Positions 28,332 through 58,268 of a stretch of 64,000 nucleotides of DNA are shown piece after piece. Numbering within the stretch: the first letter of the stretch is position 1; each line of letters opens with the position of its first letter. The position numbers were made by a program, and so were the translations under genes. The DNA is taken from positions 1 to 64,000 of the forward strand of contig JAHDPL010000024.1 of the NCBI GenBank assembly GCA_018434355.1, given 5' to 3'. The notes beneath the pieces are model-generated. The model was given only the letters and a program-made list of their open reading frames with translations. It ran no database searches and was not told where the DNA came from. Origin of the DNA: Sporomusaceae bacterium (GTDB lineage Bacteria > Bacillota > Negativicutes > UBA1444).

Positions 28332-28925
28332 TTAGAATCGAGGTCCTTGGCCAGGGCCTTTTCCACTGCCCATTCCCGGCCCGCCATGTCCGGCAAAGCC
28401 TTTTTCAAAGCCGGCATCGATTCGTTTTTGCATCCACTCGATTTTCGCATCCGCTTGCGACTGAGTGATTTGACCGGCGCTTACCAAACGGGACAGGTTT
28501 TCTTTTTGAATGGCGAGACGTTGCTCAGCCATCTTTTTCAGGTCGGCTTTCTGTTCATCGGTGAGCGGCGCATTCAGCCTGGCACCGGGGGCAACCAGGT
28601 TGTTTTTCATCCGGAAGGAATGCGAGCTTTGCATTGTTTGCAGTTTTGCATCGGCTTGTTCTTGGGTCAAATAACCGGTTTTCACCATCAGTTGAATCCG
28701 CTCTTTTTTTAGCTGGAAGTTTTTATCCTGCAAAGCTTTCCATTCGGCTTGCTGCGCATCCGTCAACTGCTGGGCCTGGATTGCCATTGGGCCGGCCATG
28801 CCGGGTCCGCCCATGCCGCGCCCGCCTCCCATCATTCCCATGCCCATCGGAGAGGCCATGGTGACTCCAGCAACAGTCAGTGCCAATACGGCCACGCCGA
28901 CAATAATCATTGTTCTTTTGCTCAT
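28332..28925 (-). CDS. Secreted DUF2680 (Spy/CpxP-like) protein 1
   Basis: 197 aa from the ATG 9 nt after AAAGGAG (an ATG 6 nt earlier is too near the ribosome site). Signal peptide to about residue 25 (MIIVGVAVLALTVAGVTMASP), then a Gly/Met-rich stretch (MGMGMMGGGRGMGGPGMAGP), then alpha-helical repeats with LTDAQQ, LTQEQADAK, LTDEQKADLKK and ITQSQADAK, and a Gly-rich tail. The LTxxQ-like helices recall periplasmic Spy/CpxP chaperones, but that is analogy. A paralogue lies at 55.7 kb beside a two-component system and shares the same promoter box. The protein probably acts in the cell envelope; the function is not established. Confidence 0.87.
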   Translation of the reverse strand: MSKRTMIIVGVAVLALTVAGVTMASPMGMGMMGGGRGMGGPGMAGPMAIQAQQLTDAQQAEWKALQDKNFQLKKERIQLMVKTGYLTQEQADAKLQTMQSSHSFRMKNNLVAPGARLNAPLTDEQKADLKKMAEQRLAIQKENLSRLVSAGQITQSQADAKIEWMQKRIDAGFEKGFAGHGGPGMGSGKGPGQGPRF

Positions 28926-28974
28926 TTTCATCTGCTCCTTTCAACTTTGGCGGCTTATCCCGCCCTCAATTCAT

Positions 28975-29028
28975 ATTATAGAAGCAGATTATTACGAAAC
29001 GGTGTCAAATTTGTGACAACATTGTGAA
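28975..29028 (-). promoter_or_regulatory. Shared OmpR-type box plus -10 upstream of DUF2680-1
   Basis: On the minus strand: 17-bp box TTCACAATGTTGTCACA (29028-29012), a 31-nt spacer, then -10 TATAAT (28980-28975). The box is a direct repeat with 11-bp period (TTCACA / GTCACA), the usual form of OmpR/PhoB-family sites, and there is no good -35, as expected for an activated promoter. The same box and spacer occur at 56425-56478 and 57361-57414. Confidence 0.75.
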
Positions 29029-53284: not shown

Positions 53285-53323
53285 GAGGAGCCGGACGAAA
53301 CAACAGTTTTCATCCGGCTCCTC
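53285..53323. terminator. Terminator between hcp and the sensor kinase gene
   Basis: 11-bp stem GAGGAGCCGGA / TCCGGCTCCTC, extendable through GAAA/TTTC, between converging genes. The T-runs are modest on both sides. Confidence 0.75.
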
Positions 53324-53327
53324 GGTA

Positions 53328-54914
53328 TTAATTTGTGTCTTGAGCTTTTACGTCCGCAGCTTCAGTTTTAAATTCCAGTTCGATCCGCGTTCCGGCGCCG
53401 GGTTCGCTCACGACGTTGACGCGCGCCTTGTGCAGGTCGATGATCTGACGGGCGATGGCTAGGCCTAGACCTGCGCCGCCTTCGTCCTGCTGATGAGACT
53501 TGTCCACCTTGTAAAAACGCTCCCAGATATAGGGGAGATCTTCCGCCGGAATTCCGATGCCGGTGTCCTGCACAGTACACCGCAGGGCGCCGGCTTCTGT
53601 CTGCGCCAGGGACAACGTCACACTGCCGCCGGACGGCGTATATTTCACGGCGTTGTCTGCCAAAATCAGCAGCAGCTGCACCAAACGGTCGCGGTCGCCC
53701 GAAATCTTTGGCAAGGCTTCGCCTGATTCGATCTGCAGCGCGATCTGTTTGGCCTCAGCCAGCGGCTGCACCAACTGCCCGACATGGCGCAGGATTTCGG
53801 CTAAATCCTGCGGCGAAAAGCGGTTACCCGATTCGGCGGTTTGCAGCTTGCTCAGCTCCAGCAAACTTTTGATCAGGCGCTCCAGTCGGACCGCTTCATC
53901 GCGGACCATCTGCAGGAAACTGTCGATTTGTTTGCGGTCATCGACCGTGCCGTCCAGTATGGCTTCGGAATAGCCGCGAATGATCGTGAGCGGGGTGCGT
54001 AGCTCGTGCGAAACGTTGGCGATGAAATCGCGGCGCAATTTTTCAGTCTTGGCAGCTTCCAACATGAACTGACCGAGGTCGGCGGCCAATTGGTTGATAG
54101 AGGTTCCCAGCCGACCGATCTCATCGGCGCTGTCGATGTGTACCCGCGCGCCATAATCGCCTTTGGCGATCGCGCCTGTAGTATCCTGCATCGCCCGTAG
54201 CGGCCGGACCAAGCTGCGCGTGAGCAATTGGATGACCAAAAAGGAGAGTAGAATCCCGGCCACCGCCCCGAGGCCGATGAACCAATAGATATGGCGCAAA
54301 AAGTCATTCACGGCGACGACCGGCGAGTTGATCACCACCGCGCCGTCGACTTTGCCGTTAGACAGGCGGATCGGCACGCCGACCACCACCATTTGTTCTT
54401 CGTACACCGGATGAACAATCACCTTACTCCACAGATTGCCCTGATATACCGTGTCCAGTTCATTGGCAAAGCTGCGCAGCGCGGCTGGCAGCGCTGCTGG
54501 TGGCGTCGGGCCGCCGCCCGGCGAAGCATTGCGTCCGCCCATTCCCATGCCGCCGCCCTGACCGCCGCGACCCATGCCCATTCCCATGCCGCCGCGCGGC
54601 GAGCCGGCTTGGTGACCACCCTGTGAAAAGGCGAGCGGCTGCCGATTTGTGTCCAGCACCCAGATTCGTGAATCAAGATACAGGTCCATGTCGCTGAGCA
54701 GATCGCCGAGCGTTGTTCTGGGCGTCGGGTTCTCCTTGAAAGCGGCGATTTTTTTTGCCAGTTCGCTGCCTTTTTGCGTCAGGTCCTGCTGCTTTTCGCT
54801 CAGCATCCGGTCGCGAATGAACAAGGAGGCGCTCCAGAAGACGGCGACCAGCACGACGATGATGACCAGCATGAAGGCGGCGACCAATTTTGCTTGAAAC
54901 GACCATTTCTTCAT
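53328..54914 (-). CDS. Sensor histidine kinase with Gly/Met-rich extracytoplasmic insertion
   Basis: 528 aa. Transmembrane helices at about residues 9-33 and 209-232 flank an extracytoplasmic domain that contains a Gly/Met/Arg-rich stretch (about 105-136, e.g. GGMGMGMGRGGQGGGMGMGG). Then HAMP (about 233-285), HisKA with phospho-acceptor His303 (FIANVSHELRTPL) and HATPase_c with NAVKYTP, DTGIGIP and GGAGLGLAI. A CpxA/BaeS-like architecture. It overlaps the regulator gene by 4 nt. The insertion resembles the N-terminal segment of the secreted DUF2680 proteins, one of which is encoded just upstream, suggesting a common ligand or direct contact. Confidence 0.93.
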   Translation of the reverse strand: MKKWSFQAKLVAAFMLVIIVVLVAVFWSASLFIRDRMLSEKQQDLTQKGSELAKKIAAFKENPTPRTTLGDLLSDMDLYLDSRIWVLDTNRQPLAFSQGGHQAGSPRGGMGMGMGRGGQGGGMGMGGRNASPGGGPTPPAALPAALRSFANELDTVYQGNLWSKVIVHPVYEEQMVVVGVPIRLSNGKVDGAVVINSPVVAVNDFLRHIYWFIGLGAVAGILLSFLVIQLLTRSLVRPLRAMQDTTGAIAKGDYGARVHIDSADEIGRLGTSINQLAADLGQFMLEAAKTEKLRRDFIANVSHELRTPLTIIRGYSEAILDGTVDDRKQIDSFLQMVRDEAVRLERLIKSLLELSKLQTAESGNRFSPQDLAEILRHVGQLVQPLAEAKQIALQIESGEALPKISGDRDRLVQLLLILADNAVKYTPSGGSVTLSLAQTEAGALRCTVQDTGIGIPAEDLPYIWERFYKVDKSHQQDEGGAGLGLAIARQIIDLHKARVNVVSEPGAGTRIELEFKTEAADVKAQDTN

Positions 54915-55642
54915 GAAAAGGACTCCTTTGGCAAATGAATTTCAAATCGGTAGCCCACGCCCCAGACGGTGGCGATTTTCCAGTCGGAGCTGCCATCATC
55001 GATTTTTTGCCGCAGTCGCTGGATGTGGATGTCGACGGTGCGGCTATCGCCAGAGGCATCGACTCCCCAGACGGTCTGCAGCAGATTGTCGCGCGAGAAA
55101 ACATGACCGGGCCGACTGGCCAGGGTATGCAGCAAATCGAACTCCTTGGCAGTCAGTTCTTTTTCCACGCCCCCTAAGTGGACTGAGCGAGCCGCCGGGT
55201 CGATCCGCAAAGCGCCATGTTGCACGACAGGGGACACTATTGGAGCTTTGACCGGTTGCGGCGGCTTGGCTGCAGCCGGACGGCGGCGCAGGATGGCGCT
55301 GACCCGGGCGACGACCTCCTGCGGGTTGAATGGCTTTTCCACATAATCGTCCGCTCCGCAGTCGAACCCGAGCAGCTTGTCGTCGACTTCTGTGCGGGCC
55401 GTGAGCAGCAGGATCGGCGTGGTTGCCAGCTTGCGAATCTGGCGGCAGGTTTCCATACCGTCAAGCACCGGCATCATGATGTCCAGCACGATCAGGTCCG
55501 GCTGGTTGTTCTGCAGCGAAAGCAACGCTTCTAGGCCGTTTTCGGCTTCGCTCACCTGAAAGCCGGCCTTTTCCAGATAGATTTTCAGTAGGTTGCGAAT
55601 CCGGCCATCGTCGTCGACGAGGAGGATTTTTTGTTTTTCCAT
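54911..55642 (-). CDS. OmpR/PhoB-family response regulator
   Basis: 243 aa. Receiver with Asp54 (LIVLDIMMPVLDG), Thr/Lys in LLLTAR and EKPF, a Pro/Ala-rich linker (about 128-150) and a winged-helix DNA-binding domain (ELTAKEFDLLHTLASRPGHVFSR, then TVDIHIQRLRQKI and VWGVGYRFE). It partners the kinase downstream (4-nt overlap). OmpR-type proteins bind direct repeats of about 11-bp period; exactly such boxes lie upstream of both DUF2680 genes and the beta-lactamase-like gene. No copy of the box is seen before its own start. Confidence 0.95.
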   Translation of the reverse strand: MEKQKILLVDDDGRIRNLLKIYLEKAGFQVSEAENGLEALLSLQNNQPDLIVLDIMMPVLDGMETCRQIRKLATTPILLLTARTEVDDKLLGFDCGADDYVEKPFNPQEVVARVSAILRRRPAAAKPPQPVKAPIVSPVVQHGALRIDPAARSVHLGGVEKELTAKEFDLLHTLASRPGHVFSRDNLLQTVWGVDASGDSRTVDIHIQRLRQKIDDGSSDWKIATVWGVGYRFEIHLPKESFS

Positions 55643-55661: not shown

Positions 55662-55698
55662 TAAAAATAATGACGAAGAATGCCGTAGCACCCTTCGT
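55662..55698 (-). terminator. Terminator between DUF2680-2 and the response regulator gene
   Basis: On the minus strand: GACGAAG / CTTCGTC stem followed by ATTATTTTTA. Read-through may feed the two-component genes. Confidence 0.75.
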
Positions 55699-55723
55699 CA
55701 TTCCAAGACCATTGTAGCTGTTA

Positions 55724-56353
55724 TCAGAAGCGGTTGCAACCGCCACCCGCGCCGCCACCAAAGCCGCCGCGTCCCTGTCCTTTGCCGCCGCCCATGCCGC
55801 GTCCGCCTTTATTCGCTCCCATGCCGTTTTCCAGACGATAGTTGAAATTATCCTGCATCCGCTGGATCTGGTTGTCGGCCTGCGCCTGGGTGATTTGGCC
55901 GGATTTCACTGCATTGGCCAGCGCTTCCTTGCGGGTAGCCAGCCGCTGCTCAAACAGTTTTTTCATGTCGGCTTTTTGCTCGTCGGTCAGCTTGACGTTG
56001 CGCATCGCACCGGGCGCTACCAGGTTGTTTTTTGCGCGGAAGGCATGCATCGATTCCATCTGCTTGATCCTTGCATCAGCTTCTGCCTGGGTCAGCGAGC
56101 CGGATTTTACCAGATTACCGATATACTCTTTGCGAAGTTGAAAATTCTTTTCCTGCCAAACTTTCCAGTCGGCGAGTTGCTGCTCGGTCAGTTGCGCCGG
56201 CGGTTGACCCTGCGGGCCCATGCCCATGCCGCCGCCCATACCGCGTCCGCCACCCATGCCCATGCCTCCACCCATCGGGCCAGCCAAAGACACCGAAGCC
56301 AGCGAGAGTACCAAAACGGCTGTTCCTAAAATCGCGATTGTCTTTTTGTTCAT
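55724..56353 (-). CDS. Secreted DUF2680 (Spy/CpxP-like) protein 2
   Basis: 209 aa from the ATG 9 nt after AAGGGGG (an ATG 6 nt earlier has poor spacing). Signal peptide (KKTIAILGTAVLVLSLASVSLAGP), a Gly/Met-rich stretch (GGGMGMGGGRGMGGGMGMGP), helical repeats with LTEQQLADWK, LTQAEADAR, LTDEQKADMKK and ITQAQADNQ, and a Gly/Arg-rich tail ending in CNRF. It is a clear paralogue of the protein at 28.3 kb. Predicted exported; a Spy-like chaperone or metal-binding role is a guess. It is encoded just upstream of the two-component system and has its own box-containing promoter. Confidence 0.87.
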   Translation of the reverse strand: MNKKTIAILGTAVLVLSLASVSLAGPMGGGMGMGGGRGMGGGMGMGPQGQPPAQLTEQQLADWKVWQEKNFQLRKEYIGNLVKSGSLTQAEADARIKQMESMHAFRAKNNLVAPGAMRNVKLTDEQKADMKKLFEQRLATRKEALANAVKSGQITQAQADNQIQRMQDNFNYRLENGMGANKGGRGMGGGKGQGRGGFGGGAGGGCNRF

Positions 56354-56424
56354 TGTCATAATCCCCCTTATATTTTTGTGTTGATTTTTTATTTGTGACC
56401 GCAGCATTTTTGGCTGTTAATCAA

Positions 56425-56478
56425 AGTATAGCGGTCAAGCGTTTCAAAAGAATGTCGTATTTGTAACGAAAGTGTGAA
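56425..56478 (-). promoter_or_regulatory. Shared OmpR-type box plus -10 upstream of DUF2680-2
   Basis: On the minus strand: box TTCACACTTTCGTTACA (56478-56462), 31-nt spacer, -10 TATACT (56430-56425). Identical in box sequence to the one upstream of the beta-lactamase-like gene. Confidence 0.78.
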
Positions 56479-56500
56479 ATTTGCAAGGCACGGTTTGAAA

Positions 56501-57328
56501 TTAATTGGCATGCCAGGAAAAGTTCACCGGTTCACCGCTCAACCGACTGTATAGACAGGCCGACAGCGCGGCGATAAAGTCGCTGGCATAGTCGCCGTCT
56601 TGCGGCGTTTCAGTGAATATGCTGATCAGAATCGGTCCGTTGGGCCCTTCGACCACTCCCACATCGGCCAGCACATCGTCTAGTTCGCCGATTTTGTGGA
56701 TGACTTTGCGTGGCTGCAGATAGCGGGCCATTTCATCAGGAAAAATCGAGTTTGCCATCGCATCCAGCATGAACCGCGTCTTATCCGGACCAATTAGATT
56801 ACCGCGGTAGAGTTGCTCGAAAATCAGCGCCATGTCGCGGGCGGTCGTGACGTTGGAGTAACCGAATGCCTCGCGCGCCTGATTGTCGCGAATCGTGGTG
56901 TGCCGCATGCCCAGCCGGGAAAAATGTTCGCGGATTACCGCAGGTCCGATTGATTCCTCGATTTCGTCAAGAAAATCGGCGAAATAATCGTTTTCACTAA
57001 CGGTCATCATCAGTTCGACGCCGGTATCATAAACGGCGCGCAGGTCGGGGCCAGCCTGCTTGTAGAAGTGGCGGTAGACGACGATGGAGACGGGGACCTT
57101 GATCGTCGAGGCGGCGGCAAAAATGTTGTCGGGATGGTACTCGATCACCTGACCGGTTTTTAAGTTCTTGGCGTAATAGCCGACATCGCCGAGGAATTTG
57201 CCGACCGGCAGACAATCGGCAGGCAGTGAAGCCGGTGAGGGAGTATTTTGCGCAAAAGCGAGTTGCAGCGATCCGGTCGATAGAAGCAGCACGACTAGGA
57301 TTGCGATGAGACATACTTTGCGACGCAT
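56501..57328 (-). CDS. Class A beta-lactamase-like serine hydrolase
   Basis: 275 aa from the ATG after GGAGGTG. Signal peptide (VCLIAILVVLLLSTGSLQLAFA). Active-site STIK (SxxK) at about residue 73, SEN (SDN equivalent) at about 110 and KIG (KTG equivalent) at about 210. I do not find the omega-loop Glu-x-x-Leu-Asn used for deacylation, so it may be a peptidoglycan-active DD-peptidase-like enzyme or slow beta-lactamase rather than a resistance enzyme. The promoter has the same box and spacing as the two DUF2680 genes, placing it in the envelope regulon. Confidence 0.83.
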   Translation of the reverse strand: MRRKVCLIAILVVLLLSTGSLQLAFAQNTPSPASLPADCLPVGKFLGDVGYYAKNLKTGQVIEYHPDNIFAAASTIKVPVSIVVYRHFYKQAGPDLRAVYDTGVELMMTVSENDYFADFLDEIEESIGPAVIREHFSRLGMRHTTIRDNQAREAFGYSNVTTARDMALIFEQLYRGNLIGPDKTRFMLDAMANSIFPDEMARYLQPRKVIHKIGELDDVLADVGVVEGPNGPILISIFTETPQDGDYASDFIAALSACLYSRLSGEPVNFSWHAN

Positions 57329-57360
57329 TGGTGACACCTCCGAATTCTTCTCTACATATC

Positions 57361-57414
57361 ATCATAGGTGGAAGATGTTTCACAGGTTTGACGCAACTGT
57401 AACGAAAGTGTGAA
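57361..57414 (-). promoter_or_regulatory. Shared OmpR-type box plus -10 upstream of the beta-lactamase-like gene
   Basis: On the minus strand: box TTCACACTTTCGTTACA (57414-57398), 31-nt spacer, -10 TATGAT (57366-57361), 32 bp before the start codon. Confidence 0.78.
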
Positions 57415-57465: not shown

Positions 57466-57506
57466 TGAGTTGGTAAGAGTTTTTAATGGCAGAGGGAGGT
57501 TTTTTT

Positions 57507-57857
57507 GTGCCGAAAATTGCCTCGAAAGCGAAACGATTACGGATTTATATCGGTGAATCAGATACATGGAATCATCGTCCGACGTTTCGGGTCATCGTGG
57601 AAAAGGCAAAAGAACTGGATATGGCAGGGGCCAGCGTGTTTCGCGGCTTGATGGGGTACGGCGCGAACAGCCGGATTCACACGGCGTCGATTGTCGATCT
57701 GTCGGGCGACTTGCCGATCTTGATCGAACTGGTCGACAGTGAAGAATACATCAACCGGTTGCTGCCATTCCTCGACGAAGTGCTCGATACCGGCGGCATG
57801 GTCACGCTGGATGATATCGAAGTAATCAAATACGGAAAAAAACCGCCCAAACGATGA
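57507..57857 (+). CDS. DUF190 protein
   Basis: 116 aa from the GTG 7 nt after AGGGAGG (an in-frame ATG upstream lies before the ribosome site). Recognised by KRLRIYIGESDTWNHRP, AGASVFRGLMGYGANSRIHT and DLPILIELVDSEEYINRLLP, the ferredoxin-like-fold DUF190 family, which is commonly encoded beside crcB. A PII-like sensing role has been suggested for the family; the ligand is unknown. crcB follows after 33 bp. Confidence 0.9.
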   Translation: MPKIASKAKRLRIYIGESDTWNHRPTFRVIVEKAKELDMAGASVFRGLMGYGANSRIHTASIVDLSGDLPILIELVDSEEYINRLLPFLDEVLDTGGMVTLDDIEVIKYGKKPPKR

Positions 57858-57890
57858 GGTCATCGCAGGCGGGGCAAGCGTGAGGTGTAA

Positions 57891-58268
57891 ATGGAATTGA
57901 AGTTGTTGGCAGTTGCAGTGGGCGGCGCGGTCGGCGCCTGCACCCGCTATTGGGTTTCACAATGGGCGGCCGGCAGGTTTGGCGCCGACTTTCCCTACGG
58001 GACGCTGATCGTCAATGTAGTCGGGTGCTTTATCATCGGGGTGTTTCTGACGCTGACCACGGAACGGATTATCGTCAGCCCGTATTGGCGTCTTGTCGTC
58101 GCGGTCGGCTTCCTCGGCGGGCTCACGACGTTTTCTTCGTTTGGCTATGAAACGCTGCGGTTGGTCGATGCGGCGAATTTGTTGCCGGCGCTTAGCAATA
58201 TTGCACTCAATCTGTGCCTGAGTCTGCTTGCCACCTGGGCTGGCATGATGCTGGCCAGAGTCCTATAA
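57891..58268 (+). CDS. crcB: CrcB/Fluc fluoride channel
   Basis: 125 aa with four hydrophobic helices: LLAVAVGGAVGACTRYWVS, PYGTLIVNVVGCFIIGVFLTL (with the conserved Asn), WRLVVAVGFLGGLTTFSSFGYE (the TTFSSF fluoride-coordination motif) and ALSNIALNLCLSLLATWAGMMLA. It exports fluoride as a dual-topology dimer. A single crcB copy with DUF190 suggests a homodimer. Confidence 0.94.
   Translation: MELKLLAVAVGGAVGACTRYWVSQWAAGRFGADFPYGTLIVNVVGCFIIGVFLTLTTERIIVSPYWRLVVAVGFLGGLTTFSSFGYETLRLVDAANLLPALSNIALNLCLSLLATWAGMMLARVL

Follow-up and report, generated by a model that had tools for sequence, protein, structure and literature searches.

A phased tandem operator of PhoB/OmpR type ahead of DUF2680 and envelope genes in the Negativicutes

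Three promoters in a 64,000-nucleotide stretch of a Sporomusaceae bacterium genome (contig JAHDPL010000024.1; this whole stretch is hereafter the window) share a tandem-repeat operator that recurs, in fixed phase with the -10 hexamer, ahead of DUF2680 genes across the class Negativicutes. The operator family is real and conserved. The three sites appear to be members of one family of targets for a PhoB/OmpR-type response regulator, and the recurrent operator would mark a stress- or signal-response gene set under two-component control in a diderm Firmicute and its class. Taken as a whole, and judged from sequence, the explanation that combines this operator family, its regulon and the regulator encoded in the window as the most likely reader is considered reasonably probable.

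Structure of the operator

The 17-bp box TTCACA-N5-GTNACA is found exactly at positions 29028-29012, 56478-56462 and 57414-57398, in each case on the minus strand, and is followed after exactly 31 nt by TATAAT, TATACT or TATGAT. These positions, strand, spacing and -10 hexamers had been given by a sequence-only reading of the window, and a rescan returned all of them exactly. The 11-bp direct-repeat period of OmpR/PhoB type noted in that reading also holds and extends to four repeats, the box being the first half of a full operator composed of four 11-bp tandem units. Their consensus is R1 TTCACA, R2 GTYACA (GTTACA or GTCACA in the window), R3 GNCA (GACATT, GTCAAA or GACACC) and a weaker R4 (GAAACG, GAAACA or GTAATA), the weakness of R4 in the window operators being counted against the main explanation. 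In the window operators, 9 nt separate the end of R4 from the -10, and the array occupies the -35 position. Among the in-phase DUF2680 promoters, no hexamer placed 16-18 nt from the -10 agrees with TTGACA at four or more positions, which accords with the earlier remark that no good -35 is present. PhoB sites are composed of 11-nt direct repeats that are bound head-to-tail, with contact to sigma (PMC4415409). The window sites have this PhoB-type activator layout, and their direct repeats, with a period of about 11 bp over the -35, are those of OmpR/PhoB-family operators.

Table 1. Operators, genes and hairpins of the window
Feature	Position	Strand	Evidence and remarks
DUF2680-1	28332..28931	-	exported; PF10925 E=1.2e-19
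Operator/promoter 1	28975..29028	-	pattern scan; orthologous promoter with same box in the nearest relative (G001)
Operator 1, -10	28980-28975	-	TATAAT
Operator 1, repeats	29028-29023, 29017-29012, 29006-29001, 28995-28990	-	TTCACA, GTCACA, GACACC, GTAATA
Terminator-like hairpin after kinase	53285..53323	-	16 pairs; consensus match only
Sensor histidine kinase	53328..54914	-	HAMP-HisKA-HATPase
PhoB/OmpR-type response regulator	54911..55642	-	PF00072 E=1.8e-31; PF00486 E=2.6e-27
Terminator-like hairpin, DUF2680-2/regulator gap	55669..55702	-	15 pairs, then ATTTTTATAG; consensus match only
DUF2680-2	55724..56359	-	exported, Met/Gly-rich; PF10925 E=3.1e-20
Operator/promoter 2	56425..56478	-	TTCACA / GTTACA / GACATT / GAAACG; -10 TATACT 56430-56425
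Class-A-beta-lactamase-like serine hydrolase	56501..57328	-	exported; PF13354 E=1.1e-32
Operator/promoter 3	57361..57414	-	TTCACA / GTTACA / GTCAAA / GAAACA; -10 TATGAT 57366-57361

Pfam searches agree with the gene identities first read from the sequence (two DUF2680 proteins, a beta-lactamase-like hydrolase, an OmpR-type regulator and a kinase; Table 1). Both DUF2680 proteins belong to PF10925, with 72.5 and 70.6 bits against a gathering score of 25. Proteins of this family are generally exported and possess helical hairpins between Met/Gly- or His-rich ends; in the AF2 model of DUF2680-1, Met/Gly-rich ends surround two tandem helical hairpins. The open frame of DUF2680-2 reaches back as far as 56407, and the start taken here, 56359, has the better RBS. 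As the hydrolase matches PF13354 and falls short of the NCBIfam bla_class_A cut-off (51 bits against 200), it is termed beta-lactamase-like. The regulator, which contains a receiver and a winged-helix Trans_reg_C domain, is a member of the OmpR/PhoB family and scores below every NCBIfam equivalog cut-off given here. The extracytoplasmic loop of the kinase harbours a Met/Gly-rich stretch (GGMGMGMGRGGQGGGMGMGG) resembling the DUF2680 ends, and a similar stretch is present in the kinase loop of most species examined. The hairpin between DUF2680-2 and the regulator gene suggests strong expression of DUF2680 and weak, read-through expression of the regulator and kinase. The module is flanked by DUF190 and CrcB (fluoride channel) genes at window positions 57486-58268. 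In two other genomes (G003 and G023; loci L045 and L050), genes for CrcB/DUF190, an ArsR-type regulator and a P-type ATPase are likewise found in the vicinity of a DUF2680-regulator-kinase module.

Recurrence in the genome and across the class

When the composite pattern (box, 31 nt, TATNNT) was searched for across the 3.9-Mb genome, four exact matches were found, about 0.007 being expected by chance according to our own estimate: the three window sites and a fourth at C6:6152, which played no part in defining the pattern and lies upstream of a gene for a 169-aa exported protein. With up to two mismatches allowed on both strands, 11 real matches stand against four in the reversed control. The 17-bp box alone, again with two mismatches, occurs 14 times in the window against 13.1 expected, i.e. 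it is not enriched. The two-mismatch matches L007-L010 resemble chance and were set aside, and a match at C17:172425, ahead of a gene for a membrane 4Fe-4S protein and with TAGAAT at the right phase, is doubtful as a target.

Conservation was examined in 200 Negativicutes genomes, the nearest relative among those compared being Negativicutes bacterium UBA1444 (G001), a draft that is 73% complete. The exact three-repeat form followed by TANNNT gave 13 matches and none in the reversed control. Of the two matches in G001, one precedes the DUF2680-1 orthologue and the other that of the C6 exported protein, and the remaining exact matches in the class outside the genus lie ahead of DUF2680 genes, a family that a Pfam search detected in 35 of 150 class genomes. 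The phased four-repeat operator, called at an automatic score of at least 17, is present in 36/46 DUF2680 upstream regions, compared with 8/439 for the other genes of those loci and 0/230 for shuffles; correction of mis-called starts allows five more DUF2680 genes to pass, giving about 41/46. Seven of the eight non-DUF2680 positives precede exported, envelope or regulator genes (MacA, TolC, beta-lactamase-like, two of C6 type, one further exported protein and one response regulator), and the eighth is itself a DUF2680-family gene that had slipped past the exclusion filter. When the four-repeat array was placed without reference to any -10, strong -10 hexamers occurred at offsets of 48 (29 promoters), 59 (10) and 70 (1), which differ by one repeat each, and elsewhere once. 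Together with the match of operator flavour to regulator clade described below, this recurrence carries the case far past what the sequence-only reading had to offer.

An explanation of these sites as chance likeness or copied promoter segments, read by no common regulator, could appeal to the two window sites that lie within 1 kb of each other and are identical over TTCACACTTTCGTTACA. It is refuted by the counts and retains next to no probability: control counts are near zero, some 40 DUF2680 promoters from many families keep the same phase, and the sites are distributed over several contigs with unrelated sequence outside the repeats. The earlier view that the boxes are not just a local repetition is upheld.

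Outside the class, the exact pattern also occurs ahead of HlyD/MacA-type adaptor genes in Clostridia MAGs (L101, L104 and L120). In Proteobacteria and further phyla (L083, L084, L085, L097, L105, L107, L108 and L132) it catches what are probably PhoB boxes of PstS, PstB and PhoX genes, and a match to the pattern is therefore not by itself diagnostic of the DUF2680 system.

Operator flavours and their regulators

A regulator of the same family is found near 29 of 45 DUF2680 loci examined, mostly within 3.5 kb, the usual gene orders being DUF2680-regulator-kinase or regulator-kinase-DUF2680. The operators occur in three flavours, of which A has TTCACA, B has TTCC and C is TTC-rich with three repeats. 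When the adjacent regulators were placed on a tree, all eight of type B grouped in a single clade and both of type C in a second one. A regulator of genome G094, placed in the B clade by the tree, was later found to have a TTCC operator before a neighbouring gene, a small fulfilled prediction of the match between flavour and clade. Since operator flavour tracks the clade of the adjacent regulator, DUF2680-associated PhoB/OmpR-type regulators almost certainly read this operator family. The match could partly reflect common descent of whole DUF2680-regulator loci and not recognition; the A sub-flavours also separate by leave-one-out scoring, to which such common descent contributes. The recognition helix differs little from one flavour to the next (Ile to Val at residue 207 of the window regulator), and its residues are not proposed as a flavour code.

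All three flavours are present in this one genome, on the contigs C16 (the window, A), C32 (B) and C33 (C). The C32 module (C32:6907-8229; L163) is composed of DUF2680, regulator and kinase genes behind a TTCC-type operator. This operator has a single exact match in the genome, for which reason the module appears to have no target but its own genes. The C33 module (C33:54.2-58.7 kb; L164) has two divergent promoters, each with a TTC-rich array of three repeats. It encodes a short DUF2680 protein, a small membrane protein resembling SHOCT, a regulator, and a kinase whose loop contains Met residues.

The reader of the operators in this genome

The sequence-only reading had held that the two-component system of the window activates all three promoters. 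What stands of this claim is a real OmpR/PhoB-type operator with activation-type geometry; the assignment of the reader is only favoured, as contig C26 encodes a paralogous regulator and kinase that must be taken seriously as a rival. It may be that the operators are read mainly by the C26 pair, or by both, and that the window pair is a copy that has diverged and in part specialised. In most of the genomes tested whose A-type DUF2680 operator is an orphan, a regulator of C26 type, 70-74% identical to that of C26, is present; G094 departs from this, its best match belonging to the B clade. Moreover, a regulator grouping near C26 adjoins an A-type operator in genome G021, the boxes of the genome studied here score best with the C26-associated A sub-flavour, and the window regulator sits on a long branch. 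Against this, C26 has neither a DUF2680 gene nor a box nearby, whereas the order DUF2680-2/regulator/kinase puts an operator ahead of the window regulator's own genes. G001 has kept the boxes and a window-type regulator, and a C26 orthologue was not found there; this absence is weak evidence because the gene flanking C26 is likewise missing from the 73%-complete draft. On balance the C26 or shared reading is considered the less probable, though not a negligible one, and the window regulator (54.9-55.6 kb) is favoured as the reader in its own genome at somewhat better than even probability. The regulator and kinase most closely related to those of the window, in G001 (C241; L034), form an apparent operon with ABC-type efflux permease and ATPase genes, which stand in place of a DUF2680 gene.

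The regulon and a proposed mechanism

The predicted regulon in this genome is an envelope-and-efflux set, in line with the envelope regulon originally proposed, and it reaches beyond the three window promoters. The box ahead of the C6 exported protein gene is conserved in the G001 orthologue. A one-mismatch match at C36:132658 lies upstream of a gene for a small exported protein, which is followed by genes for an MscS channel and for a paralogue, 64% identical, of the window's beta-lactamase-like protein; this cluster is a probable member. The MacA-MacB operon (C33:223.8 kb), with four repeats GTCACA/TTCACA/GTCACA/TTCACG that are kept in G001 up to an assembly gap, and a TolC-family gene (C23:120.3 kb), with in-phase repeats and TACAAT at the expected phase, are probably members as well. 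No convincing operator was seen at MacA homologues outside the genus. At homologues of the beta-lactamase-like gene the four-repeat operator was not found, which is counted against the main explanation; some of them instead carry GTCATA-N5-GTCATA 9 nt before TATACT or TATTAT (L223, L227, L230 and L231). These two-repeat elements are a hint that beta-lactamase-like genes may be under related control throughout the class.

In the mechanism proposed here, from operator geometry and the example of PhoB, the phosphorylated regulator would bind four head-to-tail 11-bp half-sites as a head-to-tail array, and the bound regulator would recruit sigma-70-type RNA polymerase, the last half-site ending 9 nt before the -10 and standing in for a -35 element. 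The core regulon would comprise at least the two DUF2680 genes, the beta-lactamase-like gene and the two small exported proteins. Because the regulator-kinase pair comes after DUF2680-2 and its operator, positive autoregulation of the pair is also predicted. The sensor loop of the kinase has the same Met/Gly composition as the DUF2680 proteins, which probably feed back on the kinase or share its ligand.

Significance

The regulon is apparently undescribed so far: literature searches found no paper on such a DUF2680-operator regulon and none on envelope-stress two-component systems in Negativicutes, and among 5.39 million full-text papers DUF2680 is mentioned once, in an unrelated toxin-antitoxin context. 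The operators provide a first functional context for this domain of unknown function, on which there is essentially no literature, and a regulon is now defined in diderm Firmicutes. Three flavours paired with three regulator clades in one genome also offer a natural system for studying the insulation of PhoB/OmpR paralogues.

Comparison with known systems

In common with the pho box of PhoB in Escherichia coli and the PhoP box of Bacillus subtilis, the window operators pair an OmpR/PhoB-family regulator with head-to-tail 11-bp repeats that replace the -35; they differ in their half-site, TTCACA/GTYACA, and in their targets, DUF2680 and envelope genes. That the boxes are themselves Pho boxes of a phosphate-starvation regulon is very improbable. 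Such a reading would account for the arrangement of the repeats, which is that of PhoB (PMC4415409), and for the finding that the same pattern catches likely PhoB sites in Proteobacteria, ahead of genes for PstS and PhoX. It was dropped because the genome's own pstS promoter (L203, on C23) has TTAAC-type repeats and no TTCACA box, and its best PhoB-like regulator is encoded on C41 and belongs to a different clade; furthermore, no phosphate-uptake gene is among the identified targets, and the window regulator scores 210 bits against a PhoB cut-off of 296.2. The TTAAC-type direct repeats of the pstS promoter resemble a Bacillus-style Pho box.

WalRK (YycFG) of Firmicutes shares hexamer-N5-hexamer direct repeats and a Firmicute envelope setting with the window system. 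The reverse complement of the box, TGTRAC-N5-TGTGAA, resembles the WalR box (TGTWAH-N5-TGTWAH; PMC4168254) in spacing and half-sites, the targets are envelope proteins, and the best NCBIfam score of the kinase is with WalK. A WalR (YycF)-type cell-wall regulon is nonetheless very improbable, as the scores lie far under the cut-offs (regulator 213 bits against 340 for YycF; kinase 283 against 725 for WalK), four phased repeats stand against two, the half-sites differ, one clade has the TTCC flavour, and no WalRK-type gene neighbourhood was seen. The closest NCBIfam models of the window regulator are RpaB, associated with HLR1 in cyanobacteria, and MtrA of actinobacteria, at 230 and 226 bits, both below cut-off (330 and 300).

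The CpxRA-CpxP, BaeSR-Spy and ZraSR-ZraP systems of Proteobacteria also combine a two-component system with an adjacent small exported helical protein, as is predicted for DUF2680 control here, and efflux and envelope genes are again among their targets. CpxP feeds back on the CpxA kinase (PMC6737893), and a feedback of this type by an exported protein is a possible likeness to the DUF2680 system. The sequence-only reading had spoken of a Cpx/Bae-like circuit, which holds as an analogy and not as homology. Scores fall short of every equivalog cut-off: 171 against 341 for CpxR and 129 against 486 for CpxA; 183 against 380 for BaeR, and 207 against 500 and 187 against 603 for BaeS. DUF2680 has no LTXXQ Pfam match, ZraP appears in profile searches only at E=0.15, and Foldseek found no PDB fold at E<=0.001 for the AF2 model (mean pLDDT 64). 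DUF2680 is thus not placed in the Spy/CpxP/ZraP (LTXXQ) family and homology to it is not claimed, leaving the relation to Cpx and Bae as one of analogy only. As a tentative view, held at rather less than even probability, the Negativicutes may have paralogous DUF2680/regulator/kinase modules insulated by diverged half-sites, in which DUF2680 acts as the exported feedback partner of a Met/Gly-loop kinase and the whole constitutes an independently evolved counterpart, in diderm Firmicutes, of Cpx/CpxP or Zra/ZraP.
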